From Candidatus Latescibacterota bacterium (GTDB taxonomy: Bacteria > Latescibacterota > UBA2968), in assembly GCA_022823725.1 (NCBI GenBank), contig JAJEHL010000007.1:1-64000 (forward strand): a DNA stretch of 64,000 nt. Direction: 5' to 3'. Of the stretch, positions 24,731 through 40,689 are shown in pieces; position 1 is the stretch's first letter, and every line of letters begins with the position of its first letter. Under the pieces are notes generated by a model, which was not told the origin of the DNA, ran no database searches, and worked only from the letters and a program-made list of their open reading frames with translations. The position numbers were made by a program, and so were the translations under genes.

Positions 24731-24759
24731 GAGCAGGTAATTACCTGCTCTTTTTTTTT
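24731..24759 (+). terminator. Strong intrinsic terminator between convergent genes
   Basis: A perfect 20-base palindrome, GAGCAGGTAATTACCTGCTC (24731-24750), is followed by nine T. It ends the lipoprotein gene and overlaps the stop codon region of the convergent DNA polymerase gene. Confidence 0.9.
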
Positions 24760-26884
24760 AAAACAGACGGAGTTGGTCGCGTGGGATGGGTTGGATCAAG
24801 GGAAACAGGCGGCGAAATTCGCCATCGGGAAATAGAACGCGAAAACGCTCGGCCATATCGTGCAATCGGCGCAGTAAATAGCCCCGATCTTCGTCGTGAG
24901 TAAAAAATTCCGCGCGGGAAAGGGAGCCATCCTGACACTGATAAACCGCGATTCGCTCGCCAATACGACAGCCTTTGGCAGCCGTTGCAAGCCGGCTCAG
25001 GTTCGGGTTTGAAAAGGTTTTTTTAGTAATGCGCTCAAACCGGCAAAAATCTTCGGGATCAATCTTGCCGTCTTGCAACTTGCGTCCAAGGGATAGATAT
25101 GCGCGAGAAACGGCTTCTGTATCGCCATCGACGAGCAAGGGTGCGATCTGTGCAATAAATTGGCGAAAAATGCGTTCATCGCGCCGGCTTCGCAGGCTAC
25201 TGCCCACAAGCGATACACCGCCGTTGTAATCGACGAGAATATAATTTTTTGCCTTGAGACTGATCATCCCTTTAAAGCGACCATCATGCGAAAGATGAAT
25301 GCCTCGGGGCAAAGTAGCCGAAATCTCCTCAATGAGCTGTTTCTCATCAGTCTCTGTTTTGACATGCAGTGGCGCGACAAAGTAAGCCCCATCGGTATCC
25401 ACTTCTATAATTTCCCCACCGGCATCGCGCAACTCAGATACGAGTTGGCGGGCGATTTGCTGCCCAATTAAAGTAATTTTTTCCGCGGCGTGATAGTCAT
25501 TAAAACACGCGCGTCCGTATCCCAGATATCCGTAAAAAGAATTGATGAGAATTTTGTAGCTGCCCTGCAACCCATTCCAATATGCGCGATCGGTTTCGTC
25601 ACCCGCGCTTTGAAAATTGTTTTTTGCCTCAAGGCGTCGCTGCGTGAGATGTTCGAGCATGGGCAAAAAAGCATTTTCAGTGTCAGTCGCCGGGCGGATC
25701 TCCTGGGTTAACATAATCGATGGATAAAGACTTTCCACATCGGCTTTGACCACGCGCTTAAAAATGCCCGAAGCCACGAGTCGCGTATAGCCTCCACTAA
25801 AGCCCTTTGAGGGACGCGGTTTGGGAATGGCGAGATTGCGCCGCAGATAAAGCCCAACCATCAGGGCGTTGATTTTCTCTCCTGGCCCGCTGAGTGCGGC
25901 GTCTTGAAAGTTGTATGGCAAAATCTGTGTCTGATAAAATTCGGTAGGAACGACCACCTCGCTTAGTGCTTTGACATCGCGTACATCGTCGAGCGCGTAG
26001 TTGATGAGACGTTGCGGATTGGTGCGCCAGGTGCGGGCAATATCTTCCCCATCGACAAACGTGCGCCCCGCCCGTTCAAGCCCAAGTGCGTGGATGACCT
26101 GCTTGAGGCCATAGCGCTCCAGCTTGCCCCCGGTATCATAACGCTGCACTTGCTGTAGCGTATCGATAATATGTCGCCCGTAGATATAAGCCGGGCGAAA
26201 ACCCGGGATTCGTGCGCCAACTTTGAAGACGCGTTGCCCGTTTCCCTCGCGCAATGCCGACCCGTCTCTCCCCCATGTGAGGGCAATACCATAGTGCTGG
26301 GCGCGCGCGACGAGATAGGGCAAGTCAAACTCAAAAATATTGTGGCCTTCAATCGTATCGGGGTTGCGCGTTTCGATTACTTTGTTGAGGTTGCGAAGCA
26401 GGTCTGCCTCGCTCATATCCGTAGCACTCAGCACGGTTTCAAAGCCACGCGAATCGGAAATTGAGATGAGAATGATCTGTGCATCGGGTGCCGAGGGATT
26501 GAGCGTAAGGGTCTCGATATCGAGTTGCAATCGGTGGAGATCACCGTAGCGCATGCCGCGAAATAGAGTTTGGCCCGAAAGCGTCAGATGCTGCCGCACG
26601 GGATTGTTAAAATTAAAATGCGGTATGCCATCCTGGGCGAGGCGGTCGCGTGCGGCGAGAAAATGGGACCAATTGTGAAAGTGTACCCGCGCGCGAAATT
26701 CGCCGCCGCCTTTGAGACGCGCGCAATCCGAAACCCCGACCAGGCCAGACCGGGCGGACTCTTCGGGCGTCTCAACGAGCAACCACGGGGAAAAGGGTTG
26801 CAGGTCACAAGTATCGCGCGTGTACAACGCCATCTGGTTTCCGCCGACGAGTTCGGCAGCGAGAACACCGGGGAGATAAGCCAT
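24758..26884 (-). CDS. Family B DNA polymerase with 3'-5' exonuclease
   Basis: 708 residues from ATG 26884 (GGAG seven bases upstream); an in-frame TTG at 26932 is less likely. Exonuclease motifs: D122 and E124 (LDIETL), N182/D187 (GHNIFEFDLPY), Y296/D300 (YALDD). Polymerase motifs: A with D382 (DVESLYPS), B as KILINSFYG (444-452), and C as VDTDGAYF, where the usual DTDS is DTDG (D496, D498). The catalytic acids are all there, so activity is expected, unlike inactivated PolB2 proteins. At about 700 residues it is compact. Bacterial members are thought to act in repair or translesion synthesis; this one's role is unknown. It is monocistronic. Confidence 0.88.
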   Translation of the reverse strand: MAYLPGVLAAELVGGNQMALYTRDTCDLQPFSPWLLVETPEESARSGLVGVSDCARLKGGGEFRARVHFHNWSHFLAARDRLAQDGIPHFNFNNPVRQHLTLSGQTLFRGMRYGDLHRLQLDIETLTLNPSAPDAQIILISISDSRGFETVLSATDMSEADLLRNLNKVIETRNPDTIEGHNIFEFDLPYLVARAQHYGIALTWGRDGSALREGNGQRVFKVGARIPGFRPAYIYGRHIIDTLQQVQRYDTGGKLERYGLKQVIHALGLERAGRTFVDGEDIARTWRTNPQRLINYALDDVRDVKALSEVVVPTEFYQTQILPYNFQDAALSGPGEKINALMVGLYLRRNLAIPKPRPSKGFSGGYTRLVASGIFKRVVKADVESLYPSIMLTQEIRPATDTENAFLPMLEHLTQRRLEAKNNFQSAGDETDRAYWNGLQGSYKILINSFYGYLGYGRACFNDYHAAEKITLIGQQIARQLVSELRDAGGEIIEVDTDGAYFVAPLHVKTETDEKQLIEEISATLPRGIHLSHDGRFKGMISLKAKNYILVDYNGGVSLVGSSLRSRRDERIFRQFIAQIAPLLVDGDTEAVSRAYLSLGRKLQDGKIDPEDFCRFERITKKTFSNPNLSRLATAAKGCRIGERIAVYQCQDGSLSRAEFFTHDEDRGYLLRRLHDMAERFRVLFPDGEFRRLFPLIQPIPRDQLRLF

Positions 26885-26960: not shown

Positions 26961-27018
26961 TGTGAGGAGTTCTAAACCACGCAATCGCATATTCTACCAG
27001 ACCTTTAATATGCGTTCT

Positions 27019-27048
27019 AACCGCCCGGTAACAACGGGCGGTTTTTTT
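27019..27048 (+). terminator. Intrinsic-type hairpin upstream of the first GWxTD gene
   Basis: AACCGCCCG and CGGGCGGTT flank a seven-base loop and are followed by a T-run. No gene on the + strand immediately precedes it. It is homologous in position and sequence to the hairpin at 29706-29742, so it looks like the tail of an older duplicated unit. Confidence 0.75.
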
Positions 27049-27075
27049 ATACCTGCAGAGCACTCAAAAATTATT

Positions 27076-27089
27076 GCTAATTATTTCGC
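27076..27089 (+). promoter_or_regulatory. Upstream operator copy for the first GWxTD gene (probable BlaI-type site)
   Basis: GCTAATTATTTCGC is an imperfect dyad (10 of 14 positions symmetric; half-sites GC[T/G]AA). The same 14 bases occur at 27137, 29760 and 29827, always around a -35/-10 pair. Confidence 0.65.
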
Positions 27090-27098
27090 TATTTGGAC

Positions 27099-27127
27099 TT
27101 GACAACAAATTTTTAATAGGATATTTT
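27099..27127 (+). promoter_or_regulatory. Promoter of the first GWxTD gene
   Basis: TTGACA (27099-27104), 17 bases, TATTTT (27122-27127). It is framed by operator copies at 27076-27089 and 27137-27150, so a repressor bound at both could block or loop out polymerase. Confidence 0.7.
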
Positions 27128-27136
27128 TCTTTTTGT

Positions 27137-27150
27137 GCTAATTATTTCGC
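27137..27150 (+). promoter_or_regulatory. Downstream operator copy for the first GWxTD gene
   Basis: A second exact copy of GCTAATTATTTCGC, 61 bases from the first and just past the expected transcription start. Here it is extended to TGC...GCA, making the dyad longer. Confidence 0.65.
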
Positions 27151-27202
27151 ACAATATCACTCAGATTGATAAAAAGACTACTCTCTTTTGAAGGGAATAA
27201 CA

Positions 27203-29668
27203 ATGCGATTTACAACTCATATCGGATTGATCGCACTGACATGCCTCTTAAGTTTCGGCTCGTCCAAAGGGGAAACAGCAATAGATTCGCTATTTCACAT
27301 GGCAGAGCAACAAGTCGGTCATGTGAGTCGTGCGAAAAGCATTGTGGCCTTCAAGGAGATTATTTCCAAAGATAGAGATTACGCACCTGCATACAACGAA
27401 TTGGCCAAACTGCACCTGTTGGACTACAGCGTAAATGGCCGACAGCGCGCAACGCGGATGATACAGCAGGCAATCGCAAGTGCCCCCGACAATATTGAGT
27501 ATCGGCTGACACGCGGAAAGATTTGGTGGCATCAAGGCTTTCGATTTCGGGCATTGAACCAATTCAAGAACGTGATCAAAAAGCATCCGAAAAATACGGA
27601 TGTCCTCAATAGTCTGGGTATGTTCTTGGTGTATGATTTTCTATCACAGAAAGATAGAAGAGCGACATTAAGAGAGATGGACATGAGGTCCAGTGTATTC
27701 ATAGATTTCAAGAGAATGGCAATGCGATCCAGGATAAAAGATTTCAAAATCTTTGCCGATGAAGCCAAACAAGAAGCAATTCAGGTCCTGCGAAAAAGCA
27801 TCCAATTGGATGGGACCAATCAGCAACCTTATTATTTATTGGGCATACTCTACTTTGAAGACAAATATTGGGATGCCTTCCATGCCTTGATGCAAGCCCT
27901 GCGCGCGCAACATCCAGATGACAAAAATGCGCTCTTGTTCTGTGGCCTTGCCGCCTATCAAATTGGCGAGTTCAATGACTCACATGGCTATTATCAACGT
28001 GCCCTTGACTTGATGAGTATCGAAGAGCGCGAGTTGCTCGAATCTATCGACTTGCTTGCATCCGAAGAAGATCATGCATCCCGCGATACGACGCAGACGA
28101 TAGATGCGCTATTGGAACGCGAGATGTTTTGGAAGCGCCAGGATCCGCTCTATTTGTCTGATTTTAACGAAAGAAAGATGGCGCACTTTGGTCGTATGGC
28201 ATACTCAAATTTGCGGTTCAGGCGATTTTCAGATGATGTCGAGGGCTGGCAGACAGACATGGGGAAGACCTATATCAAATTTGGAAGATATAGACTGCGC
28301 GTAACAACCTATAAAGGGACATGGGATTCTAAAGAGGCCTTGAATGCTGCAATGATGGAGTTCTGGTATTACGAAGATTTTCAGTTCCAATTTTGTGGCA
28401 CGACGGATGATATCTGGAATTTTTGCGGCGGTGCTGTAGGCTACCTCCCAAGCGCGGTCCCTCCAGTAGAAATGAGTGCCTTTACGTTTGAGGGGTTAGT
28501 ATCAAAAGCTGATACTGCGGGAGTACGACCGTATTTTATGAGGAGAAAACCACTGGCTTCCTTTGCACCACGTACATTGGGAGAGGCCTCGCATCATACC
28601 TTCCGAAAAACAGCCCAACGCTTTATCGATCCGTATTTACAGCGAAAATACACCCTCCCCTATCAGATCGCCACCTTTGAAGAACAGAACAGGATACGCG
28701 TCGAACTAAGCTATATGATTCCAAAAAACCGATTAACAGAAAATCCAGAAACGGGCAAGGTGCGTTTTTGGGATGGTGTCTTCTTCTTTGATCAGCAGTG
28801 GAATGATATGTATAACCACCGCAAATCCAGATCCCTCACTTTGCCACCACAGAAGCCAGCCTCCAATGCTGCTGCACGGCATCGCAACGATCACCTGTTG
28901 ATCTCGCGCGCGGTATCTGTACGCCAGGACAGCTATCACTTTTCTGTGGAATTACTGGATCAAACATCTGGTCTTATTGGTGTGGCACGCGATAAGAAAC
29001 CCTTCGTATATAACCAGGATTTTCGCCTGAGTGATTTGTTGGTCGGCAGCGATATTCAAGCGAAGAAAGCATTGCCAGAAAGCCGTGACGATCTGCACAT
29101 CACCCCCAATCCCGTCCGTACATTTTCACAGTCTGAACCGGTCTTTATCTATCTGGAACTGTATGATCTCCAACGCAACGATTTTGGCAGCACGCAGTAT
29201 GAGATCTCCTACACCATCGGCAAGCCAGAAGTGGATACCCTGTCTCCGACCTTGTTCGCCTCTCAAAGTCTGATTGAGACCCTGGGCAAAATAGAGATTG
29301 ATCTGCGCAGTGAACAAGCAAACCAAATTGCTGCCGAGGATTTGCAGACCGGACAATCACAGGATGATGATGTGCTCGATAGCGTATTTCCCGATAGCGA
29401 TATATGGGGAGAGACAAAGGTTTATACGAGTGGTGGACAGGTCCATCACATCGCCGCTGAGGGCTTGAAGGTCAAGCGATCACGACAGGGCGATTTGACG
29501 CGAACTGTGACAGCGAATTACGAAGGTAATCGAGAAGATGATTTCACGTATTTGCAGATCGATGTGAACCAGGTGCCTGCGGGGATTTATCAATTGACCG
29601 TATTGGCAAGGGACAAGCGGACGGATCAGACGGATAGGAAGTACGTTTATTTTCGTATTGTAAAGTAA
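27203..29668 (+). CDS. Secreted TPR / GWxTD-domain protein (paralogue A)
   Basis: 821 residues from ATG 27203 (GAAGGGA upstream; a TTG 15 bases earlier is not used). Residues 1-22 are a signal peptide. TPR-like helices follow at about 30-130 and 200-270 (APAYNELAKLHL, PYYLLGILYFED, EFNDSHGYYQRALDL). The GWxTD domain has its motif at residues 348-352 (GWQTD), followed by GKTYIKFG and a cysteine pair C398-x9-C408. The C-terminal 200 residues are beta-rich. The function is unknown; GWxTD proteins are envelope or secreted proteins of FCB and related phyla. It has its own promoter with the same operators as the blaI-like gene. Paralogue B lies at 34320-36791. Confidence 0.8.
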   Translation: MRFTTHIGLIALTCLLSFGSSKGETAIDSLFHMAEQQVGHVSRAKSIVAFKEIISKDRDYAPAYNELAKLHLLDYSVNGRQRATRMIQQAIASAPDNIEYRLTRGKIWWHQGFRFRALNQFKNVIKKHPKNTDVLNSLGMFLVYDFLSQKDRRATLREMDMRSSVFIDFKRMAMRSRIKDFKIFADEAKQEAIQVLRKSIQLDGTNQQPYYLLGILYFEDKYWDAFHALMQALRAQHPDDKNALLFCGLAAYQIGEFNDSHGYYQRALDLMSIEERELLESIDLLASEEDHASRDTTQTIDALLEREMFWKRQDPLYLSDFNERKMAHFGRMAYSNLRFRRFSDDVEGWQTDMGKTYIKFGRYRLRVTTYKGTWDSKEALNAAMMEFWYYEDFQFQFCGTTDDIWNFCGGAVGYLPSAVPPVEMSAFTFEGLVSKADTAGVRPYFMRRKPLASFAPRTLGEASHHTFRKTAQRFIDPYLQRKYTLPYQIATFEEQNRIRVELSYMIPKNRLTENPETGKVRFWDGVFFFDQQWNDMYNHRKSRSLTLPPQKPASNAAARHRNDHLLISRAVSVRQDSYHFSVELLDQTSGLIGVARDKKPFVYNQDFRLSDLLVGSDIQAKKALPESRDDLHITPNPVRTFSQSEPVFIYLELYDLQRNDFGSTQYEISYTIGKPEVDTLSPTLFASQSLIETLGKIEIDLRSEQANQIAAEDLQTGQSQDDDVLDSVFPDSDIWGETKVYTSGGQVHHIAAEGLKVKRSRQGDLTRTVTANYEGNREDDFTYLQIDVNQVPAGIYQLTVLARDKRTDQTDRKYVYFRIVK

Positions 29669-29705
29669 AGAACGGATACCAATTCATCGGTTGAGCCTTG
29701 ATATT

Positions 29706-29742
29706 CATCCTAACCGCCCAGCAACAACGGGCGGTTAGGATG
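29706..29742 (+). terminator. 14-bp hairpin after the first GWxTD gene
   Basis: CATCCTAACCGCCC (29706-29719) pairs perfectly with GGGCGGTTAGGATG (29729-29742). No T-run follows, so termination may be incomplete. The core and loop match the hairpin at 27019-27048. Confidence 0.6.
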
Positions 29743-29759
29743 GACATTTAAAAATCATT

Positions 29760-29773
29760 GCTAATTATTTCGC
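29760..29773 (+). promoter_or_regulatory. Upstream operator copy of the blaI-like operon
   Basis: An exact copy of GCTAATTATTTCGC, ten bases before the -35 box. Its position relative to the promoter is the same as in the first GWxTD gene. Confidence 0.65.
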
Positions 29774-29782
29774 TATTTGGAC

Positions 29783-29811
29783 TTGACAACGAGTTTTTAA
29801 TAGGATATTTT
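29783..29811 (+). promoter_or_regulatory. Promoter of the blaI-like operon
   Basis: TTGACA (29783-29788), 17 bases, TATTTT (29806-29811). Sequence and spacing equal those of the promoter at 27099-27127, and the surrounding bases are largely conserved, showing that the two control regions are copies. Confidence 0.7.
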
Positions 29812-29826
29812 TCTGGAAACGGATAT

Positions 29827-29840
29827 GCTAATTATTTCGC
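29827..29840 (+). promoter_or_regulatory. Downstream operator copy of the blaI-like operon
   Basis: An exact copy of GCTAATTATTTCGC, 67 bases from the upstream copy and inside the 5' leader, 25 bases before the repressor ATG. Autoregulation by the encoded repressor is the natural reading. Confidence 0.65.
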
Positions 29841-29865
29841 ATGGCTAAATAAAAAGGAGCTAAAA

Positions 29866-30249
29866 ATGGCAAGACTGCGACAAGAGGGATTGACGACCCG
29901 TGAAATAGAACTCATACAGGTACTCTGGCAACAGAAAGAAGCAACCGTCGAAATGATCCAGGCAAAATTACCCAACCGATTAGAAGGATCAACCATTCGC
30001 ACGCTCCTGCAAATCATGGAAGACAAAGGCTATGTGACGCATGAAAAGCAAGGACGCGCCAATGTGTACCGCCCCGTAATCGAACAGCAAAGCGTCCAAT
30101 CCTCTGCAATGAAACACATCATTCAAAAACTATTTGGCGGATCAACCGAACTCTTACTGGCACGACTGGTTGAAGACGAAGATATAGACATGGACGATGT
30201 GGCGCGATTGCGCGAAAAACTCAAGCAACGCAAAGGAGGCACATCATGA
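29866..30249 (+). CDS. BlaI/MecI/CopY-family transcriptional repressor
   Basis: 127 residues from ATG 29866 with AAGGAG seven bases upstream; a longer frame from 29758 runs through the promoter and is not real. It has the penicillinase-repressor winged helix: LTTREIELIQVLWQQKEATVE, then STIRTLLQIMEDKGYV and a wing with QGRANVYRP. The C-terminal third should dimerise and contain the site cut on induction. Members repress until cleaved by a partner M56 membrane peptidase, which here starts in the overlapping ATGA. The paired dyads upstream of this gene and of the first GWxTD gene are the probable binding sites. Confidence 0.9.
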   Translation: MARLRQEGLTTREIELIQVLWQQKEATVEMIQAKLPNRLEGSTIRTLLQIMEDKGYVTHEKQGRANVYRPVIEQQSVQSSAMKHIIQKLFGGSTELLLARLVEDEDIDMDDVARLREKLKQRKGGTS

Positions 30250-33200
30250 TCGATACACCTGCACTGGAACCCATTGCCATCTTCCTCCTCAATGCGACTA
30301 TCAAGACCACCCTATTTATGGGGATTGTTCTACTTGCCGTGTGGCTTCTGGGTACGCGACAAGCTTCCAAACGCAGTTTGCTTTTGAACTGGTGTCTTAT
30401 TGGCGTACTGGTGATTCCCATCGCGTCTTTGTGTATGCCTTCACTGCGATTTCAATTTGATGCGCCATCATTCCCTTCAGAGCCAGTATTACCGCCCGCC
30501 GAACGTATTGTTGCACCCGATACACCTCTGGCAAAACCCATACCCGCATTGAAGCAACAAAGGGTATCTAATAGGGCGTTTTCAGAAAACCCAGAACCAT
30601 CTCAAAATTTCGTATCTCCCCCACCTGCGCAAATTGTTTTCGCCAAAAATGCCGAGACAAAATCAATTGATTGGACGACCTACATACTGAATAAAATCAC
30701 TTCAGCGCATGCTTTGTATGGTGTGATGGCGGTCTATGCTATTGGCGTATTGGTTTTACTGATTCGGGTAATCTATTGCCTTATAATGGTTTATAAATTT
30801 CGCCGATCTCTATTACTCTGTGAAGACGAACAGCTTCGCAATGATCTACAGGTCTTAAAGAATCAATTGGGTATTCGGCGCTCTGTCGCACTCGCTGTCA
30901 GTGATAAAATCGGCAGCCCAACTCAGGTCGGACTCTTGAATCCAGTAGTCGTATTGCCCGCGCCTATGGTCGAATCGCGTGGCCAGTTCGAATCGATTTT
31001 GACTCACGAACTCATTCATGTGAAGCGATGGGATTGCCTCTATCGTCTGTTGGCAATGGTCGGCATGGCATTTTACTGGTTCAATCCCCTATTCCACCGC
31101 GTCAAACACCTGCTTTTTGAAGTTCAAGAACAAACATGCGATGATTGGACCGTGACGACAACCGGCAATTCTGAAAGCTATGCAGATACGCTCCTGAATG
31201 TGGCGACCCTACTACGTCCTCGTCCTGCGATGGCCCTGGGCATGGACATGGCGCGACCAACTCAGGTCATGGAGCGGGTCAATCGCATTATCACCCTGGG
31301 CGGCCATGTGTCTCCGCGCGTTGGTCGCGTATCGGCACTGGTGTTGGCAGTGATATTTATCGGCGGGGCAACAACTATTGGCAGCCTGACCACTTCAAAA
31401 GTCGATCTCAATGATCAAAAGGTTGTGTTTGAAGATGGTATTGCCGTAACCGATACCAGCGACGTATCGCAGCGACTACTTCCGTTCAAAATGCGCGATG
31501 GTCGCATGTGGTGGCGCGGCGAGAATGGTCTCTATTTACAGGATGGAGATGTGTGGCAAAAGTTCACATTGCCGGAAGGTGGTTCTTTCGAACAGGTACA
31601 TGCCTTTATGCAAGCGCGCAATGGCTCAATATGGTTTGCTGGCATATATAAAAATGGGCCAATTGTCGTGCGCTTTAGTGAAAAGACATGGCAGATATGG
31701 GATTCAAAAACAACGGGCCTGGGAAAAATTACCGCTGGATATGACTTTGCCGAAGATGAGGCTGGCGGTATCTGGATTTCCCACCACGGTATGGGAAATA
31801 TCAGAGCATACGGAGGCCCTGATCGCTTCAAAGGCGGAAACGGCGTCTTACACTTTGATGGCAAAGCGTGGCACAACTATACCGTGGAAGATGGATTGAT
31901 TCACAATCGGGTTTACAATGTGGAAGCCGATTCCAAAGGCGGCGTGTGGATCGCAACCCTTCGCGGATTGAGCCACTACAAAGATGGAAAATGGGCCTCT
32001 CATATTGTCGATAGCGTGCCTGTAGAGGGCGTGCGTAATGGCAATAGATACGATGGCCGCAAGGTATATAAACTATTTTCTGATCGAAAAGGTACGCTTT
32101 GGGCTGTGCATGGATCGGTTATTGGGCGTACCATAACGCGGCGCAGAGGCGGAATTTCCAGCTTTGACGGCACAGCCTGGACACACTACGATGCACATGA
32201 TGGACTGCCTATCCATGCGTCTCGAAATATCTGGCAAACAGAAAATGGCGATCTGTGGTTTGGTACGCATTCAGGTGATCAACGGGATGTAGAGGCAAAA
32301 GGTCTGGTGCGATATAAAGACGGGATGTGGTTGCGATTTACGCGCAAACACGGTATTCCCAGAGATTCTGTATGGGGCCTGGTTGAAAAAGGCGATGGGT
32401 CTTTTTATCTGGGTGTTTCTGGTATTGTATCTTATGAGCCACCTATCGGTCACCTATCAACAATATCTGGGAAAGTGATCGATCAGCGCGATGGCCAACC
32501 CGTAGCAAATATGGGAATATGGGTTGAATACGACGATGGCGAGGTGCATGCCGGAACTATGACAGATGAAGATGGACGCTATCGCGTTGAAGTCACGCCA
32601 GGATCATACCGCGTGCGAATCGCGTCCAAGAATGCAGCCGACCCTGTGACCGTTGAGGCAAAGCGCGAGAGTAAAATTGAAGACATTGACCTGCTCTTGC
32701 TCAACTCGCGCCGCATCTCTGGTCGCGTAATCGATACATCCAATAATCCGATTGCCAATGCTGTCGTGGTGATTTCCGATGATACTTCAGAAGACCTGCG
32801 CCTATCCCCCCAGATCGTGACCACAGATGCCAATGGAAAATTTGAAGGCTGGCAGGTATCGGGACCGAAGGCTACTTTTGAAGTCGCAGCAAAAGGATAC
32901 ACACAAATCGCGCGAGAAGTTGAAAATGCCATTGAAGAGCAAGTAGTGATTAGTCTCAAAAAAGGCAAGACGTTTCGCGGTCGCGTTGTGGATGAGTTGG
33001 GCAAACCCATTGCCTGGGCGCGTGTTGGGCCTGGACCTCCGCCGGATCCAAAAAAGAAAGGATATACATTGCCCGCATTGCCCTTCCAGCGCAATACTTA
33101 TACGGATGCGTCGGGTTTGTTCACTATAAATGACGTAGCGGGTGGTCACATCTGGGTGAATCATCCCAAGACCGGAATGGTGAATCAAGAGGTTATGCCT

Positions 33201-34280
33201 GCCGATGATGTGATAGATATCCGCATAGAGCGTTTGCGTTTGTACTCTGTTTCAGGCGTGGTATCGCTAACTGGTGTGCCCGTAGAAAGGCTAATGGTCA
33301 GAACCATTGCCCTTAATGGAGCAGAATCCAGACCCCAAGTAGGCTACCCAGACGCTAATGGTGCATATCGTCAGGAGGGTCTGGAGCCGGGGAAATATCA
33401 TATTGCCGTACACGCACCCGAAAAAGAGGAAAGGGATGGACGCACAATCGCAATACATCGCAGTGTTCAATCTCAGGTGCTGGTAATCAAAGACCGCGAT
33501 GTAATATTGAACTTTGAGCCTCTGGGTGATGCGCGAATTACAGGTGTGGCAACTTACAAGGGACAGCCCGTTTCAGATGTTGCCGTAAGCATCCATACTA
33601 CAGGCGATGATCCTGAGAATTTTATCTCACTAAACGGCAAAAAAACAGACAAAGAGGGCCGGTTTGAATTGCGCGGTCTGCCGTCTGCACAGATTACCAT
33701 TTCTTTTCGTAAAATGGAACGCCTCGGTTCAGGTGGAAAACGCTGGAGCAAAGTCGATAAAATTGATCTGACAGAAAAAAAAGAATTGAGTTATATAGCA
33801 GAATTGAAAATGGAGGAACGTCCGACCTTGAGCCTGGGAGATATGGCACCTGAATTTGAAGCCAAACAGTTGGATGGTTCAACATTCCGGCTCGCAGATT
33901 ACCGGGGCAAAAAAGCCGTGTTGATCGACTTTTGGGCAACGTGGTGTCCACCGTGCGTCGATGAAATTCCAACAATCAAAAAAATTGCTGAAACCTATCG
34001 CAATCAGGGATTGGAAGTCGTGGGCGTGAGTTTGGATCGCGAAGAAAAGGCACTGCGAGATTTTGTAAAACGAGAAAATTTGAGCTATGTGCAGGTATTT
34101 GAGAAAGAAAAGACGCGGACAATTACAAAATCCTACGGTGTATGGGGCATCCCATCGGTATTTCTGATAGATAAAAATGGCGTCATCAACGCAATGAAGC
34201 TACGCGGAACTCGTACGGAAGCGGCTGTAAAAGCGTTATTAGACACTGGCCTACAGACGGCTGATGGAAATTCGCGATAA
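30246..34280 (+). CDS. M56 (BlaR1-like) membrane metallopeptidase fused to propeller, CarboxypepD-reg-like and thioredoxin domains
   Basis: 1344 residues, overlapping the repressor gene by four bases. Residues 1-380 are the M56 part: helices near 10-35, 40-60 and 155-185, zinc motif HELIH at 254-258, a further acidic ligand near 295 (EQTCDDW), and a last helix near 358-378. No penicillin-binding domain follows. Instead come a region of two-component-regulator-propeller-like repeats (about 415-730; GSIWFAG, GGVWIATLRGLSHY, GDLWFGTHSG), about five carboxypeptidase-regulatory-like beta-sandwiches (740-1165; ISGKVIDQRDGQPVA, ISGRVIDTSNNPIA) and a TlpA-like thioredoxin (about 1195-1344) with W-C1234-P-P-C1237. 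By BlaR1 topology the extra domains would be periplasmic. It probably cleaves, or triggers cleavage of, the BlaI-like repressor in response to an envelope or redox cue. Confidence 0.88.
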   Translation: MIDTPALEPIAIFLLNATIKTTLFMGIVLLAVWLLGTRQASKRSLLLNWCLIGVLVIPIASLCMPSLRFQFDAPSFPSEPVLPPAERIVAPDTPLAKPIPALKQQRVSNRAFSENPEPSQNFVSPPPAQIVFAKNAETKSIDWTTYILNKITSAHALYGVMAVYAIGVLVLLIRVIYCLIMVYKFRRSLLLCEDEQLRNDLQVLKNQLGIRRSVALAVSDKIGSPTQVGLLNPVVVLPAPMVESRGQFESILTHELIHVKRWDCLYRLLAMVGMAFYWFNPLFHRVKHLLFEVQEQTCDDWTVTTTGNSESYADTLLNVATLLRPRPAMALGMDMARPTQVMERVNRIITLGGHVSPRVGRVSALVLAVIFIGGATTIGSLTTSKVDLNDQKVVFEDGIAVTDTSDVSQRLLPFKMRDGRMWWRGENGLYLQDGDVWQKFTLPEGGSFEQVHAFMQARNGSIWFAGIYKNGPIVVRFSEKTWQIWDSKTTGLGKITAGYDFAEDEAGGIWISHHGMGNIRAYGGPDRFKGGNGVLHFDGKAWHNYTVEDGLIHNRVYNVEADSKGGVWIATLRGLSHYKDGKWASHIVDSVPVEGVRNGNRYDGRKVYKLFSDRKGTLWAVHGSVIGRTITRRRGGISSFDGTAWTHYDAHDGLPIHASRNIWQTENGDLWFGTHSGDQRDVEAKGLVRYKDGMWLRFTRKHGIPRDSVWGLVEKGDGSFYLGVSGIVSYEPPIGHLSTISGKVIDQRDGQPVANMGIWVEYDDGEVHAGTMTDEDGRYRVEVTPGSYRVRIASKNAADPVTVEAKRESKIEDIDLLLLNSRRISGRVIDTSNNPIANAVVVISDDTSEDLRLSPQIVTTDANGKFEGWQVSGPKATFEVAAKGYTQIAREVENAIEEQVVISLKKGKTFRGRVVDELGKPIAWARVGPGPPPDPKKKGYTLPALPFQRNTYTDASGLFTINDVAGGHIWVNHPKTGMVNQEVMPADDVIDIRIERLRLYSVSGVVSLTGVPVERLMVRTIALNGAESRPQVGYPDANGAYRQEGLEPGKYHIAVHAPEKEERDGRTIAIHRSVQSQVLVIKDRDVILNFEPLGDARITGVATYKGQPVSDVAVSIHTTGDDPENFISLNGKKTDKEGRFELRGLPSAQITISFRKMERLGSGGKRWSKVDKIDLTEKKELSYIAELKMEERPTLSLGDMAPEFEAKQLDGSTFRLADYRGKKAVLIDFWATWCPPCVDEIPTIKKIAETYRNQGLEVVGVSLDREEKALRDFVKRENLSYVQVFEKEKTRTITKSYGVWGIPSVFLIDKNGVINAMKLRGTRTEAAVKALLDTGLQTADGNSR

Positions 34281-34319
34281 ACTTTTTATGTCGTTGATGA
34301 TCTTTTGAAGGGGACGACA

Positions 34320-36791
34320 ATGCGATTCACAATTCATATCGGACTGATTGCGTTGGCCTGCATTTTGGGTCCTGGCTCGTCCAAAGGCGAAACAACAATA
34401 GACTCGTTATTTCAGGCCGCAGAACAGCAAGTCGGTCATGTGAGTCAGAAGGAAAGCATCAAAGCTTTCGAGGAGATTATTTCCAAAGACAAAAATTATG
34501 CGCCTGCATACAACGCATTGGCTAACCTGTATTTACAAGCCAATACCGTGAATGATCGACAGCGTGCTGCCCAAATGATTCTCAAAGCGATTATGATTGA
34601 TCCAAACAATGCGGAGTATCGTCTAACACGCGGGAAAATTTGGTGGCATCAAGACTTTCGATTTCGGGCATTGAACCAATTCAAGAACGTGATCAAAAAG
34701 CATCCGGAAAATACGGATGTCCTCAATAATCTGGGTATGTTCTTGGTGTATGATTTTCTATCACAGAAAGATAGAAGAGCACCATTTAAAGAGATGGACA
34801 TGGGGTCCAGGGTAAAATATTACAGGCTAATGGCAATGAGGCCCAAAATAAAAGATTTCAAAATCTTTGCCGATGAAGCCAAACAAGAAGCAATTCAGGT
34901 CCTGCGAAAAAGCATCCAATTGGATGGGACCAATCAGCAACCTTATTATTTTTTGGGCATCCTCTACTTTGAAGATGAGAACTGGTATGCGTTTCAAACC
35001 CTGATGCAAGACTTGTACGCGCAATATCCAGATGACAAAAATGCGCTGCTATTTTGCGGTTTTGCCGCCTATCAGATTGGCGAATTCGATGAATCGCATG
35101 AATACTATCAACGCGCCCTTGACTTGATGAGTATCGAAGAGCGCGAGTTGCTCGAATCTATTGATCTGCTTGTGACTGAAGAAGATCATGCATCCCGCGA
35201 TACGACACAGACGATTGATGAATTATTGGAACGCGAAATGTTTTGGAAGCGCCAGGATCCGCTCTATTTGTCTGATTTTAATGAAAGAAAAATGGCGCAC
35301 TTTGGTCGCATAGCGTATTCGAATTTGCGGTTCAGGCGATTTTCTGATGATGTCGAGGGCTGGCAGACGGATATGGGGAAGACCTATATCAAATTTGGAA
35401 GATATAGACGTCGCGTGACAACCAATAAAGGGACATGGGATTCTAAAGAGGCCTTGAATGCTACAATGATGGAGTTCTGGTATTACGAAGATTTTCAGTT
35501 CCAATTTTGTGGCACTACGAATGATATCTGGTATTTTTGCGGCGGTTCCTGGTATGGTGTCAGCGACCGCCTGCCTATAGGAGCAAGTGTTTTCCGTGAA
35601 TACTACTTCGGGGATAAGCTTCCGCTATTGGCGATGATCAGGGAAAAGTATCCTAAAGAAGGGATGAGACAAGCCTTTGCTCCTGTGCCTCGTACACTTC
35701 GGGAAGCCTCACATCATATATTCAAAAAAACAGAGCAACGGTTTGTCGATCCATATTTGTATCGAAAATATTCCCTCCCCTATCAGGTTGCAGCTTTTGA
35801 AGAACGAGACAGCGTGCGCGTCGAACTCAGCTATATGATTCCAAAAGACCGATTAGCAGAAAATCTCAAGACTGGCAAGGTGCGTTTTTGGGACGGCGTC
35901 TTCTTCTTTAATGAACAGTGGAATGATATGTATAATGATCGCCAATCCAGAACCTTCACATTACCGCCGCAGAAACCGGCACAAAACGCCGCTGCACAAC
36001 ATCGCAGCGATCACCTGTTGGTATCGCGCGAGGTGTCTGTACCTCAAGGACGCTATCATTTTTCAGTAGAATTTATGGATCAAACATCTGGTCTCATTGG
36101 TATAGCACGCGATGAGAAGCAGTATGTCTATGACGATGAGACCTTTCATCTGAGTGATCTGCTCGTCGGCAGCGATATTCAAGCGCGGAATGCGTTGATA
36201 GAAAGCCGTGATGATCTGCACATCACCCCCAACCCAGTCCGTACATTTTCACCATCTGAACCGGTCTTTATCTATCTGGAACTGTATGATCTCCAACGCA
36301 ACGATTTTGGCAATACCCAGTATGAGATCTCCTACACTATCGGCAAGCCAGAGGTAGATACGCTATCGCCCACATTATTCGCGTCTCAAGAGCTGATTGA
36401 GACAATGGGTAAAACAGAGATAGATCTGGAGACCGGACAAACAGACCAAATTGCTGCCGAGGATTTGCAGACCGGACAACCACAGGATGGTGATGAAATC
36501 AGTAGCGTATTTCCCGATAGCGATATATGGGGGGAGACAAGGGTTTATACGAGTGGAGGGCAAGTCCATCACATCGCCGCCGAAGGCTTGAAGATCAAGC
36601 GATCAAAAGATGGCGATTTGACGCGCACAGTAACAGCGAATTACGAAGGCAACCGAGAAGATGACTTCACCTACTTGCAGATTGATGTGAATCAGGTGCC
36701 CGAAGGGATTTATCAATTGACTGTGCTGGCGAAGGACAAGCGAACGGATCAGACGGATAGGAAATATGTCTATTTTCGCATTGTCGAGTAA
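34320..36791 (+). CDS. Secreted TPR / GWxTD-domain protein (paralogue B)
   Basis: 823 residues from ATG 34320, with GAAGGGG upstream. It starts 39 bases after the M56 gene with no promoter between, so it belongs to the blaI-like operon. The architecture is that of paralogue A: signal peptide, TPR-like helices, GWQTD at 347-351, the C397-x9-C407 pair and a beta-rich end. Long stretches are identical to A at the DNA level, for example around 34653-34716 and 34855-34950, while residues about 408-455 are unrelated in sequence. The role is unknown; it is likely to be the main product induced by the system together with paralogue A. Confidence 0.8.
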   Translation: MRFTIHIGLIALACILGPGSSKGETTIDSLFQAAEQQVGHVSQKESIKAFEEIISKDKNYAPAYNALANLYLQANTVNDRQRAAQMILKAIMIDPNNAEYRLTRGKIWWHQDFRFRALNQFKNVIKKHPENTDVLNNLGMFLVYDFLSQKDRRAPFKEMDMGSRVKYYRLMAMRPKIKDFKIFADEAKQEAIQVLRKSIQLDGTNQQPYYFLGILYFEDENWYAFQTLMQDLYAQYPDDKNALLFCGFAAYQIGEFDESHEYYQRALDLMSIEERELLESIDLLVTEEDHASRDTTQTIDELLEREMFWKRQDPLYLSDFNERKMAHFGRIAYSNLRFRRFSDDVEGWQTDMGKTYIKFGRYRRRVTTNKGTWDSKEALNATMMEFWYYEDFQFQFCGTTNDIWYFCGGSWYGVSDRLPIGASVFREYYFGDKLPLLAMIREKYPKEGMRQAFAPVPRTLREASHHIFKKTEQRFVDPYLYRKYSLPYQVAAFEERDSVRVELSYMIPKDRLAENLKTGKVRFWDGVFFFNEQWNDMYNDRQSRTFTLPPQKPAQNAAAQHRSDHLLVSREVSVPQGRYHFSVEFMDQTSGLIGIARDEKQYVYDDETFHLSDLLVGSDIQARNALIESRDDLHITPNPVRTFSPSEPVFIYLELYDLQRNDFGNTQYEISYTIGKPEVDTLSPTLFASQELIETMGKTEIDLETGQTDQIAAEDLQTGQPQDGDEISSVFPDSDIWGETRVYTSGGQVHHIAAEGLKIKRSKDGDLTRTVTANYEGNREDDFTYLQIDVNQVPEGIYQLTVLAKDKRTDQTDRKYVYFRIVE

Positions 36792-38487: not shown

Positions 38488-40689
38488 TCATCTGCGTAAA
38501 ACGCTCAAATTATTCGCGTTTTTTCTGCGTTTATCTGCGGATCGTGCCTTTCGCATCGCCCACCGGATCTCCTCTGCCGTCATATCCGGATCTGAGGGAT
38601 TGATGAGATTGCCAAAAATATCTGCCCCCACCACATGCTTTCGCAAACCAGGTCCCCGCAAAAGCGACGTAATGTGAATTTGCATGTGATAGCCGCGATC
38701 TACGCCATCTGTTGGTGCTTGCATCAATGCCAGACTGTAGTGATACGGCGCACCAAACAACTCGTCTAACCCGCTGAGAACATCGCGCAACCCCACTGCC
38801 AGATCGCGACGATCTTCCCCACCCAAATCCAGCAAACTCGCAGCATGTGCCTTTGGCACAATAATTACATCATAGGGAAATTGCGCGGCAAACGGAACAT
38901 AAGCCAGCACATGAGGGCGATCAACGATCACTCGTCGCCTATCCCCGGCTTCCATGCAATTGGCATCGCACACAAAACAGCGCCCCGTTTTCTCGCGATG
39001 AGATTCAAACACAGCCAATTGCGGTTTTACCATCAAATCCGGAATCTCGCAATACGCATAAACCTGTCCGTGCGGATGCGGTTGAGAATTGCCCATCACC
39101 GTGCCCCGGTTCTCAAAAATCAGCGGATACACAACATCAGGCTCCTTCCCCAACCGATCGTAAATCTCTGCCCATGCGTCAATCACCTGAACGTACGCCT
39201 TCAAAGATAGCGTTGACAAACGCTGTGCGTGATTCGGTGTATAGACCACCACCTCGCACACACCCCGAGATGTACGCGAGAGATATGGACCCAATTGCGC
39301 CTGCGTTTGATAGGCATCCAATACCAGCGTGGGAAAATCGTTCTCGAATGTCCACACGCCTTTGTAATTGGGATTTACAGCGCCCGTCGCGCGCGTATTC
39401 CCGGGGCAGAGATAGCATTCGGGGTCATAAGCCTTATCATCTCCTCCCTCCATAAGCTGCGTTTCTCCGCGCCAGGGTCTGTCTGCGCGATGGGCGGCGA
39501 TATTGACCCACCGATTCCAAAAAGGATTAAATCGCTCTTCCTGCACAACCCGATACCCCTGAGGATGCAGGCGATGCCAGTGCCAGGCGGACGCCAGTGT
39601 CTCGTGTAGCGTTTCCCTCACAACCCATCCCATATCGCGCTGAATGCGACTCGCATCGGCAATAAGCGTTGCGGGATCGCCACTTCGCGGCGGTCCAATC
39701 GTTTCGGGAATCGCCTGGCCCGTCACCTCGCGCGCGACTTCCAAAATCTCACGCACGCTCACGCCCTGTCCTCTGCCGAGATTGTACGTCGCAGACCGCC
39801 CCCCTGCCAACAACATATCCAAGCTCTTAATATGTGCATCGGCTAATTCCACCACAGAAATATAATCTCGTACAGCCGTGCCATCGGGGGTTGCATAATC
39901 ATCCCCAAATACTGTCATCTGTTCGCGCTGCCCCAAAGCCACTTGCAACACAATGGGGATCAAATGCGTCTCGGGATCGTGATCTTCACCAATCAACCGC
40001 GAAGGATCGGCACCTGCGGCATTAAAATATCGGAGAACAACATATCGCCCACCTGTCTGCTGCTCCGCATAGAGCAACATGCGTTCATCCATCATTTTTG
40101 TAATGCCATAGACATTCGTGGGAATTTTTAGTAGCGCAATATCTTCTTCGGAGAGTTTGAAAGCGATGTGTTTTTTATACCACCTCAAAAGTGTCTCAAA
40201 ATCCACCGCAGCGGGCATTAACTGACTTTTCTCAAAGCCGCCATCAGCGATCCATTTCCGCTGATAATTTTCCTTCAGGGGAATGTGTTCTGCGCAGGGT
40301 TCACCATACGTCGCCGCCGTAGATGATTTCACAATGGGCAATCCTTTGCCCATATCCAACAAATTCTGAAAAGCAATCACATTATTCTCAAAATATTTGT
40401 ACGGCATATCTTGAGATTCTCCTACCAGTGTCCGAGCGGCAAAATCGATAATGCCACAAAAATCGTGACTATCAAAAACAGAAGCCAGAGCACTGCGATC
40501 GAGCAAATTGACCCGCTCGAAACAAAATTGCTCTGGCCCATACACCCGTTCAAACAGAGTAACAACTTCCCGGTGTCCCTTTGACAGGTCATCGAGCACC
40601 ACAACCCGGCGGTGATCTTCCAACAAACGCCGCACCACGTGACTGCCAACATAGCCTGCCCCACCTGTCACCAAAACAGCATCTACCAT
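38488..40689 (-). CDS. galE-galT: Fused UDP-glucose 4-epimerase / galactose-1-phosphate uridylyltransferase
   Basis: A 733-residue single chain, ATG 40689 with GAGGAG upstream. Residues 1-378 are GalE: NAD-binding TGGAGYVGSH, active-site S-T-A near 123-125, and Y194-x3-K198 (VYGITK). Residues about 382-733 are GalT: FNPFWNRWVNIAAHRADRP, a CYLC zinc site and the catalytic H538-P-H540-G-Q. GalE and GalT are usually separate; here one message yields both, allowing UDP-glucose and UDP-galactose to be exchanged between the two active sites. The GalE half also has about 45 extra residues (roughly 143-190) between the ATYGEP strand and the YxxxK helix, a place where ordinary GalE has a short loop. 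Confidence 0.93.
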   Translation of the reverse strand: MVDAVLVTGGAGYVGSHVVRRLLEDHRRVVVLDDLSKGHREVVTLFERVYGPEQFCFERVNLLDRSALASVFDSHDFCGIIDFAARTLVGESQDMPYKYFENNVIAFQNLLDMGKGLPIVKSSTAATYGEPCAEHIPLKENYQRKWIADGGFEKSQLMPAAVDFETLLRWYKKHIAFKLSEEDIALLKIPTNVYGITKMMDERMLLYAEQQTGGRYVVLRYFNAAGADPSRLIGEDHDPETHLIPIVLQVALGQREQMTVFGDDYATPDGTAVRDYISVVELADAHIKSLDMLLAGGRSATYNLGRGQGVSVREILEVAREVTGQAIPETIGPPRSGDPATLIADASRIQRDMGWVVRETLHETLASAWHWHRLHPQGYRVVQEERFNPFWNRWVNIAAHRADRPWRGETQLMEGGDDKAYDPECYLCPGNTRATGAVNPNYKGVWTFENDFPTLVLDAYQTQAQLGPYLSRTSRGVCEVVVYTPNHAQRLSTLSLKAYVQVIDAWAEIYDRLGKEPDVVYPLIFENRGTVMGNSQPHPHGQVYAYCEIPDLMVKPQLAVFESHREKTGRCFVCDANCMEAGDRRRVIVDRPHVLAYVPFAAQFPYDVIIVPKAHAASLLDLGGEDRRDLAVGLRDVLSGLDELFGAPYHYSLALMQAPTDGVDRGYHMQIHITSLLRGPGLRKHVVGADIFGNLINPSDPDMTAEEIRWAMRKARSADKRRKNANNLSVLRR

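Follow-up and report, generated by a model that had tools for sequence, protein, structure and literature searches.

The antibiotic-sensing BlaR1/BlaI switch appears to be rebuilt with a thioredoxin-type sensor in sponge-type Latescibacterota

In sponge-type Latescibacterota, the antibiotic-sensing BlaR1/BlaI switch appears to have been rebuilt with a thioredoxin-type sensor, and its on/off promoter appears to have been copied to positions before secreted thioredoxins as well as adhesin-like and GWxTD proteins; a beta-lactamase is not among them. We read the system, with a probability of roughly 0.7, as a BlaR1-like proteolytic switch for extracytoplasmic proteins that probably senses thiol redox. 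BlaI-M56 pairs are widespread outside antibiotic-resistance settings, but to our knowledge their signals and targets there have mostly not been identified. In the present case the operator pair, by virtue of its length, its specificity and its link to a single promoter architecture, reveals the outputs at the level of the DNA, which provides a concrete regulon and a testable redox-sensor hypothesis for the receptor.

The window, i.e. the whole stretch of 64,000 nucleotides that was analysed, is part of contig C23 of a 5.34-Mb assembly (G000); same-genus records are titled Candidatus Latescibacterota or uncultured Latescibacteria (candidate phylum Latescibacterota). The gene order on the plus strand is GWxTD-A, blaI, the M56 gene and GWxTD-B, with the M56 ATG overlapping the blaI stop as ATGA. 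The analysis thus recovered the elements named in the original prediction: a BlaI-type repressor with an ATGA-coupled M56 peptidase, two flanking secreted GWxTD/TPR proteins (both above the TIGR04514 cut-off of 28 bits and 79% identical over 825 columns) and operator-like dyads at both promoters. GWxTD-B starts 39 bp 3' of the M56 stop and presumably belongs to the blaI-M56 operon.

27019..27043, plus strand: terminator-like hairpin 5' of promoter A, 9 pairs and a T tail (sequence, alignment)
27075..27090, plus strand: putative operator Op1 of promoter A, TGCTAATTATTTCGCT (dyad search)
27099..27127, plus strand: promoter A, TTGACA, 17 bp, TATTTT (sigma-70-like match)
27136..27151, plus strand: putative operator Op2 of promoter A, TGCTAATTATTTCGCA (dyad search)
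27203..29668, plus strand: GWxTD-A, secreted TPR/GWxTD protein, 821 aa (TIGR04514, 49.3 bits)
29710-29739, plus strand: counterpart hairpin 5' of promoter B, without T tail (sequence, alignment)
29759..29774, plus strand: putative operator Op1 of promoter B (dyad search)
29783..29811, plus strand: promoter B, TTGACA, 17 bp, TATTTT (sigma-70-like match)
29826..29841, plus strand: putative operator Op2 of promoter B (dyad search)
29866..30249, plus strand: BlaI/MecI-family repressor, 127 aa (PF03965, MecI match)
30246-34280, plus strand: M56 gene, 1344-aa product (PF05569, 114.9 bits)
30246..31400, plus strand: M56 protease part of the sensor, four predicted TM segments (hydropathy, residue comparison)
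31398..33785, plus strand: sensor ectodomain (Pfam, PDB sequence match, fold search)
about 31443-32450, plus strand: two-component-regulator-type propeller, Reg_prop (4a2l match, fold search)
about 32460-33785, plus strand: carboxypeptidase-regulatory-like repeats, CarboxypepD_reg (Pfam)
33837..34193, plus strand: TlpA/ResA thioredoxin domain, WCPPC at residues 1233-1237 (PF00578, 97.4 bits)
34320..36791, plus strand: GWxTD-B, paralogue of GWxTD-A (TIGR04514, 53.5 bits)

The repressor is of the BlaI/MecI winged-helix type, with 102.6 bits for PF03965 (cut-off 22.6) and a match of residues 9-120 to MecI (1okr, E=1.4e-11). CopY/TcrY copper repressors belong to the same superfamily but carry a C-terminal cysteine metal-binding motif, whereas the BlaI found here contains no cysteine and reaches only 64.6 bits against the CopY/TcrY model (cut-off 121.95); a copper repressor of this type was rejected because the cysteines are missing. 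In the M56 protein, hydropathy segments lie at residues 9-41, 42-70, 151-186 and 355-384, with HELIH (residues 254-258) between the third and the fourth. The catalytic residues H254ExxH258, D263 and E295xxxD299 are invariant in 10 aligned sequences, including that of a distant class member, and are the equivalents of the BlaR1 protease residues H201ExxH, D210 and E242xxxD246 (PMC9834060). Judged by this alignment, the BlaR1-type catalytic residues of M56 are intact. Like the bla/mec receptors, the protein combines M56 gluzincin residues with four transmembrane segments and a C-terminal ectodomain, and BlaR1-like proteolysis is predicted with good confidence. In the contigs of G009 and G010 the M56 gene is split into two frames, which may reflect sequence errors or decay.

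The 960 residues C-terminal to the fourth transmembrane segment comprise the propeller, the carboxypeptidase-regulatory-like repeats and the TlpA thioredoxin, and the only two cysteines of this ectodomain both lie within WCPPC. The TlpA domain has the AhpC-TSA/Redoxin fold together with a CXXC motif, for which a redox role is predicted; against the ResA family model it scores 109.8 bits, below the cut-off of 170. In sequence, the Reg_prop part matches PDB 4a2l, a heparin-sensing HTCS ectodomain, and a fold search with the predicted ectodomain model returned BT4663/BT4673 on top, although this model is of moderate confidence (pLDDT 60, pTM 0.47) and backs the propeller only, the TlpA part being modelled poorly. 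No Pfam match to a penicillin-binding or class-D beta-lactamase-like sensor domain was found in the receptor, and its score against blaR1_generic (76 bits) is far under the cut-off of 400.

The same two imperfect 16-bp dyads (TGCTAATTATTTCGCA) flank promoter A and promoter B alike. The four window dyads read TGCTAATTATTTCGC(A/T), the promoter block is common to A and B, and within the 10.4-kb region only these two promoters reach a 10-of-12 sigma-70 match, the strongest there. With up to two mismatches allowed, the whole 5.34-Mb G000 genome contains only the four window sites, a pair on C1 (61835/61901) unlinked to the window locus and one site on C32 before a second blaI copy; matches with three mismatches were dropped as background because their counts equal the reversed control. 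The genomes compared are all MAGs, some of them fragmented. Across the genus the pair was found in 11/11 genomes (23 matches; 0 in the reversed-pattern control), in all cases with the geometry Op1, 8 bp (once 7), TTGACA, 17 bp, -10 box (TATTTT, or TATCTT/TTTTTT), 7-14 bp and Op2, which places Op2 across the expected transcription start. Counted singly, sites with no more than one mismatch occur 46 times versus 3 in controls, and the dyad symmetry was matched by 55 of 20000 column shuffles. The strict pair form has 0 matches in 35 genomes outside the genus, and no operator within two mismatches was found at the non-Latescibacterota BlaI-M56 loci compared. Wherever a contig covers the spot 5' of blaI (G000-G008), the pair is present there. 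Position, autoregulation and co-occurrence point to BlaI as the protein that recognizes these putative operators, and the regulon that they define is very probably real. In G021 of the same class (L124), the region 5' of the gene for a 40%-identical BlaI contains a TTGACA box with a copy of a GCGAATTTTTTCGC dyad on either side; because of these dyads, the operator type may predate the genus.

Unlinked to the blaI locus, the operator pair heads an operon in six genomes (G000, G001, G003, G006, G007 and G009) that encodes a secreted dockerin-TlpA thioredoxin and, 3' of it, dockerin-LRR proteins. In G000 this operon is split over C1 and C27, and in G006 it is located at C91 with a weaker Op1. A second GWxTD family, represented by a 1042-aa TPR protein of distinct architecture (53.3 bits, TIGR04514), has an operator promoter at unlinked loci of G001, G003, G006 and G010 and lies within an operator-headed FtsX/MacB operon in G007; its orthologues in G004 and G005 have no operator. 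Single-case targets are a dockerin-LRR operon (G004) and a WD40/HELGH protein (G007). Among the inspected operator-linked genes we recognized no beta-lactamase or PBP gene: instead of a beta-lactamase or PBP2a, the switch would control GWxTD, dockerin-TlpA, dockerin-LRR, FtsX/MacB and WD40 proteins. Two GWxTD proteins as the outputs of the circuit, as originally predicted, were therefore too narrow a description. Among about 10 targets of G007 outside the blaI locus, two are redoxin genes (P about 0.0009; GWxTD alone, P about 0.05), values that are only indicative because gene counts were hand-entered and paralogues included. Everything beyond BlaI, M56 and TlpA is confined to one genus of MAGs.

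Both GWxTD proteins of the window have a signal-peptide-like N-terminal stretch, TPR repeats and a GWQTD motif (28244-28258 and 35358-35372). Pfam PF20094 matches GWxTD-B weakly (21.0, cut-off 26.9), and the AlphaFold model of this protein is unusable (mean pLDDT 38.6). GWxTD-A-type genes with their own operator pair were found in G000, G005, G006 and G007, and GWxTD-B-type genes 3' of M56 in the same four genomes and G009. GWxTD thus adjoins blaI-M56 in 5/8 resolvable genus genomes (G001, G003 and G010, where contig ends cut the blaI locus, were left out), and we regard it for this reason as facultative cargo; G002, G004 and G008 have other genes 3' of M56 and no GWxTD neighbour. In G008, the most divergent genus member, an alpha-type carbonic anhydrase gene (PF00194, 155 bits; C1, L114:3478-4263, minus strand) directly follows blaI-M56. 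The G000 genome contains 24 GWxTD genes over the cut-off, most of them without operator. At the fetched blaI loci outside the genus there was no GWxTD-A/B-type neighbour, so that phylum-wide conservation of GWxTD with blaI-M56 was rejected; a weak 27% match lies near blaI in G014, and GWxTD motif matches occur in Firmicutes M56 loci. Of the circuit first proposed, the non-beta-lactam ectodomain, the bracketed promoters and the recurrence of blaI-M56 in relatives hold, but GWxTD is not its defining output. The expected co-occurrence of the extra M56 domains with GWxTD genes failed, since M56-TlpA is found without GWxTD and the TlpA link is wider. The word GWxTD is absent from the open-access full text searched, and within this literature the locus provides the first regulatory context for GWxTD proteins.

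All complete M56 proteins of the genus have a WCxxC TlpA at their C-terminal end. G002 has an otherwise exchanged ectodomain without the propeller, yet a different TlpA (39% identical) closes the protein. More distant relatives have a separate TlpA gene beside blaI/M56: the order is blaI-M56-TlpA in G016 and G017, and in G040 and G042 TlpA precedes M56 genes or lies between them. Of 64 M56 loci taken from a scan that covered 84,980 species genomes, the five from Latescibacterota and one from Clostridia, the latter with WCNPC, have WCxxC in the M56 frame. As far as these gene arrangements tell, TlpA is the constant feature of the switch across the genus and GWxTD is facultative. The idea of envelope or redox sensing is strengthened by this fusion throughout the genus, its retention in G002 and the neighbouring genes elsewhere. 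Both the sensor TlpA and a target TlpA are ResA-like. AhpC/TSA-family frames with a single in-frame TGA occur in G000 (C35:264254, C40:96713, C25:35025 and C35:111622) and, as counterparts, in G007, which suggests selenocysteine-containing redoxins.

The dispersed promoters carry traces of their origin. In G001 (C19, L222:1517-1580), a 48-bp remnant of the blaI start (ribosome-binding site and initial codons), with an in-frame stop, lies behind Op2, between an operator promoter and a 1042-aa-type GWxTD gene (match score 50; best of 500 shuffles, 28). This fossil argues for a promoter copied from blaI, and the regulon probably grew via blaI promoter copies in front of new genes; it would be a visible case of regulon growth through promoter copying with the donor-gene fossil remaining. 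Several dispersed promoters are similar by descent and therefore do not count as independent events. At the locus itself, tandem duplicates and remnants are abundant (G007, G006, G005): the home locus of G007 reads blaI-M56-GWxTD-M56-GWxTD with a 37-residue blaI remnant (86% identical), and M56 ectodomain remnants lie 5' of GWxTD-A promoters in G006 and G007. We infer that tandem duplication and subsequent erosion led to the two-GWxTD layout of the window. In G000 (C32:49682-52794, L051), a 120-aa blaI copy (81%) comes after a third GWxTD paralogue (76%); this copy has a single degenerate operator, lacks both a TTGACA box and a subsequent M56 gene, and may be a lone repressor or a remnant. Open M56-less ectodomain frames (TlpA alone, CarbReg-TlpA, propeller-CarbReg-TlpA) were seen 5' of GWxTD or blaI promoters in L108, L112 and L136, and some of these pieces could be expressed as soluble proteins.

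The mechanism that we infer, from BlaI binding and cleavage to the kind of signal, is as follows. BlaI dimers would occupy both dyads, of which one lies immediately 5' of the -35 box and the other covers the expected start, and thereby silence a strong sigma-70 promoter. The M56 protein would cross the membrane with four segments, its zinc-protease site facing the cytoplasm and the large ectodomain the outside. The latter would sense a signal, for which the thiol/disulfide state or a cue related to misfolding is the likeliest candidate, with the TlpA CXXC as the presumed trigger; the activated protease would cleave BlaI and open the regulon, i.e. blaI-M56, both window GWxTD genes and the unlinked secreted dockerin-TlpA and dockerin-LRR operons. 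For thiol redox as the signal we see slightly less than an even chance. The wider claim that M56-TlpA is the first thiol-redox-sensing receptor of the BlaR1 class, relaying the extracytoplasmic CXXC state to BlaI proteolysis and a genus-wide secreted thioredoxin/LRR/GWxTD regulon, is put forward more tentatively.

The same circuit might answer to another signal, with the propeller and the transthyretin-like repeats binding a ligand (a host or matrix glycan, a peptide or a cell-wall fragment) and TlpA as a passenger reductase; the regulon would then be a surface-display programme for sponge-associated life. As the propeller resembles the ligand sensors BT4663/BT4673 and 4a2l, a glycan or peptide might serve as the signal, and the dockerin-LRR and WD40 proteins among the targets belong to classes that have been called eukaryotic-like in Latescibacterota associated with sponges (PMC12993501). 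TlpA domains are common, with about 20 AhpC-TSA matches in the G000 genome, and those of the sensor could be reductases carried along. However, it is the propeller that G002 lost and the TlpA domain that it kept, TlpA genes adjoin M56 in distant relatives, and a TlpA protein is also among the recurring unlinked targets, so that we consider a ligand signal somewhat unlikely.

That the GWxTD linkage is mere hitchhiking, with promoter and GWxTD co-duplicated at a repeat-prone locus and no functional tie, agrees with the duplicates and remnants described above, with the missing GWxTD neighbours in three genomes and with the many GWxTD genes lacking an operator. Yet an operator promoter of its own precedes the second GWxTD family, whose architecture differs, at unlinked loci of four genomes; in G007, duplication affected M56 and GWxTD jointly; and the operators 5' of GWxTD-A are intact. 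These points make hitchhiking distinctly unlikely. A response to beta-lactams or cell-wall antibiotics through an unusual receptor is most improbable: the MecI match of BlaI and the 76 bits of M56 against blaR1_generic are in its favour, but this score falls far short of the cut-off, and the sensor domain and the inspected targets speak against a beta-lactam response, which was rejected for these reasons.

The proteolytic switch proposed here resembles the staphylococcal and Bacillus BlaR1-BlaI and MecR1-MecI systems in its winged-helix repressor, its M56 protein with four transmembrane segments, HExxH and ExxxD, its extracytoplasmic C-terminal sensor, its co-transcription and its autoregulation with operator dyads, the last features being predicted from sequence. 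It differs in its operator sequence, in its propeller, repeats and TlpA in place of a penicillin-binding sensor, in its secreted TlpA/LRR/GWxTD targets and in the dispersal of promoter copies over the genome. It is predicted to work like BlaR1-BlaI, yet it is not a bla/mec system, its sensor domain and inspected targets being others. The hybrid two-component sensors BT4663 and BT4673 of Bacteroides share a propeller-type periplasmic sensor, but here there is no histidine kinase, and a membrane protease that targets a repressor is the predicted output. TlpA/ResA/StoA thiol-disulfide oxidoreductases share the AhpC-TSA/Redoxin fold with WCxxC; here this domain is fused to an M56 receptor and stays below the ResA family cut-off. 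BlaI beside M56 with non-PBP extracytoplasmic domains is also found in Planctomycetota (L160; CarboxypepD_reg ectodomain) and G039 (PD40 propeller; no strict operator pair), neither of them TlpA-fused. Since M56 proteins with other ectodomains exist, the kind is already known; the novelty lies in a receptor that bears TlpA, in a dispersed regulon defined by its operators and in GWxTD genes as its targets. In open-access full text, we found no paper tying BlaI/M56 to TlpA or GWxTD.

Of the surrounding genes, a Family B DNA polymerase-like protein with weak Pfam scores flanks the locus (window 24758-26884, minus strand), and several genus genomes have a 721-743-aa minus-strand neighbour in this position. 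On the other side, a 733-aa protein (window 38488-40689, minus strand) joins an NAD-dependent epimerase part to a galactose-1-phosphate uridylyltransferase part, with galactokinase adjoining.
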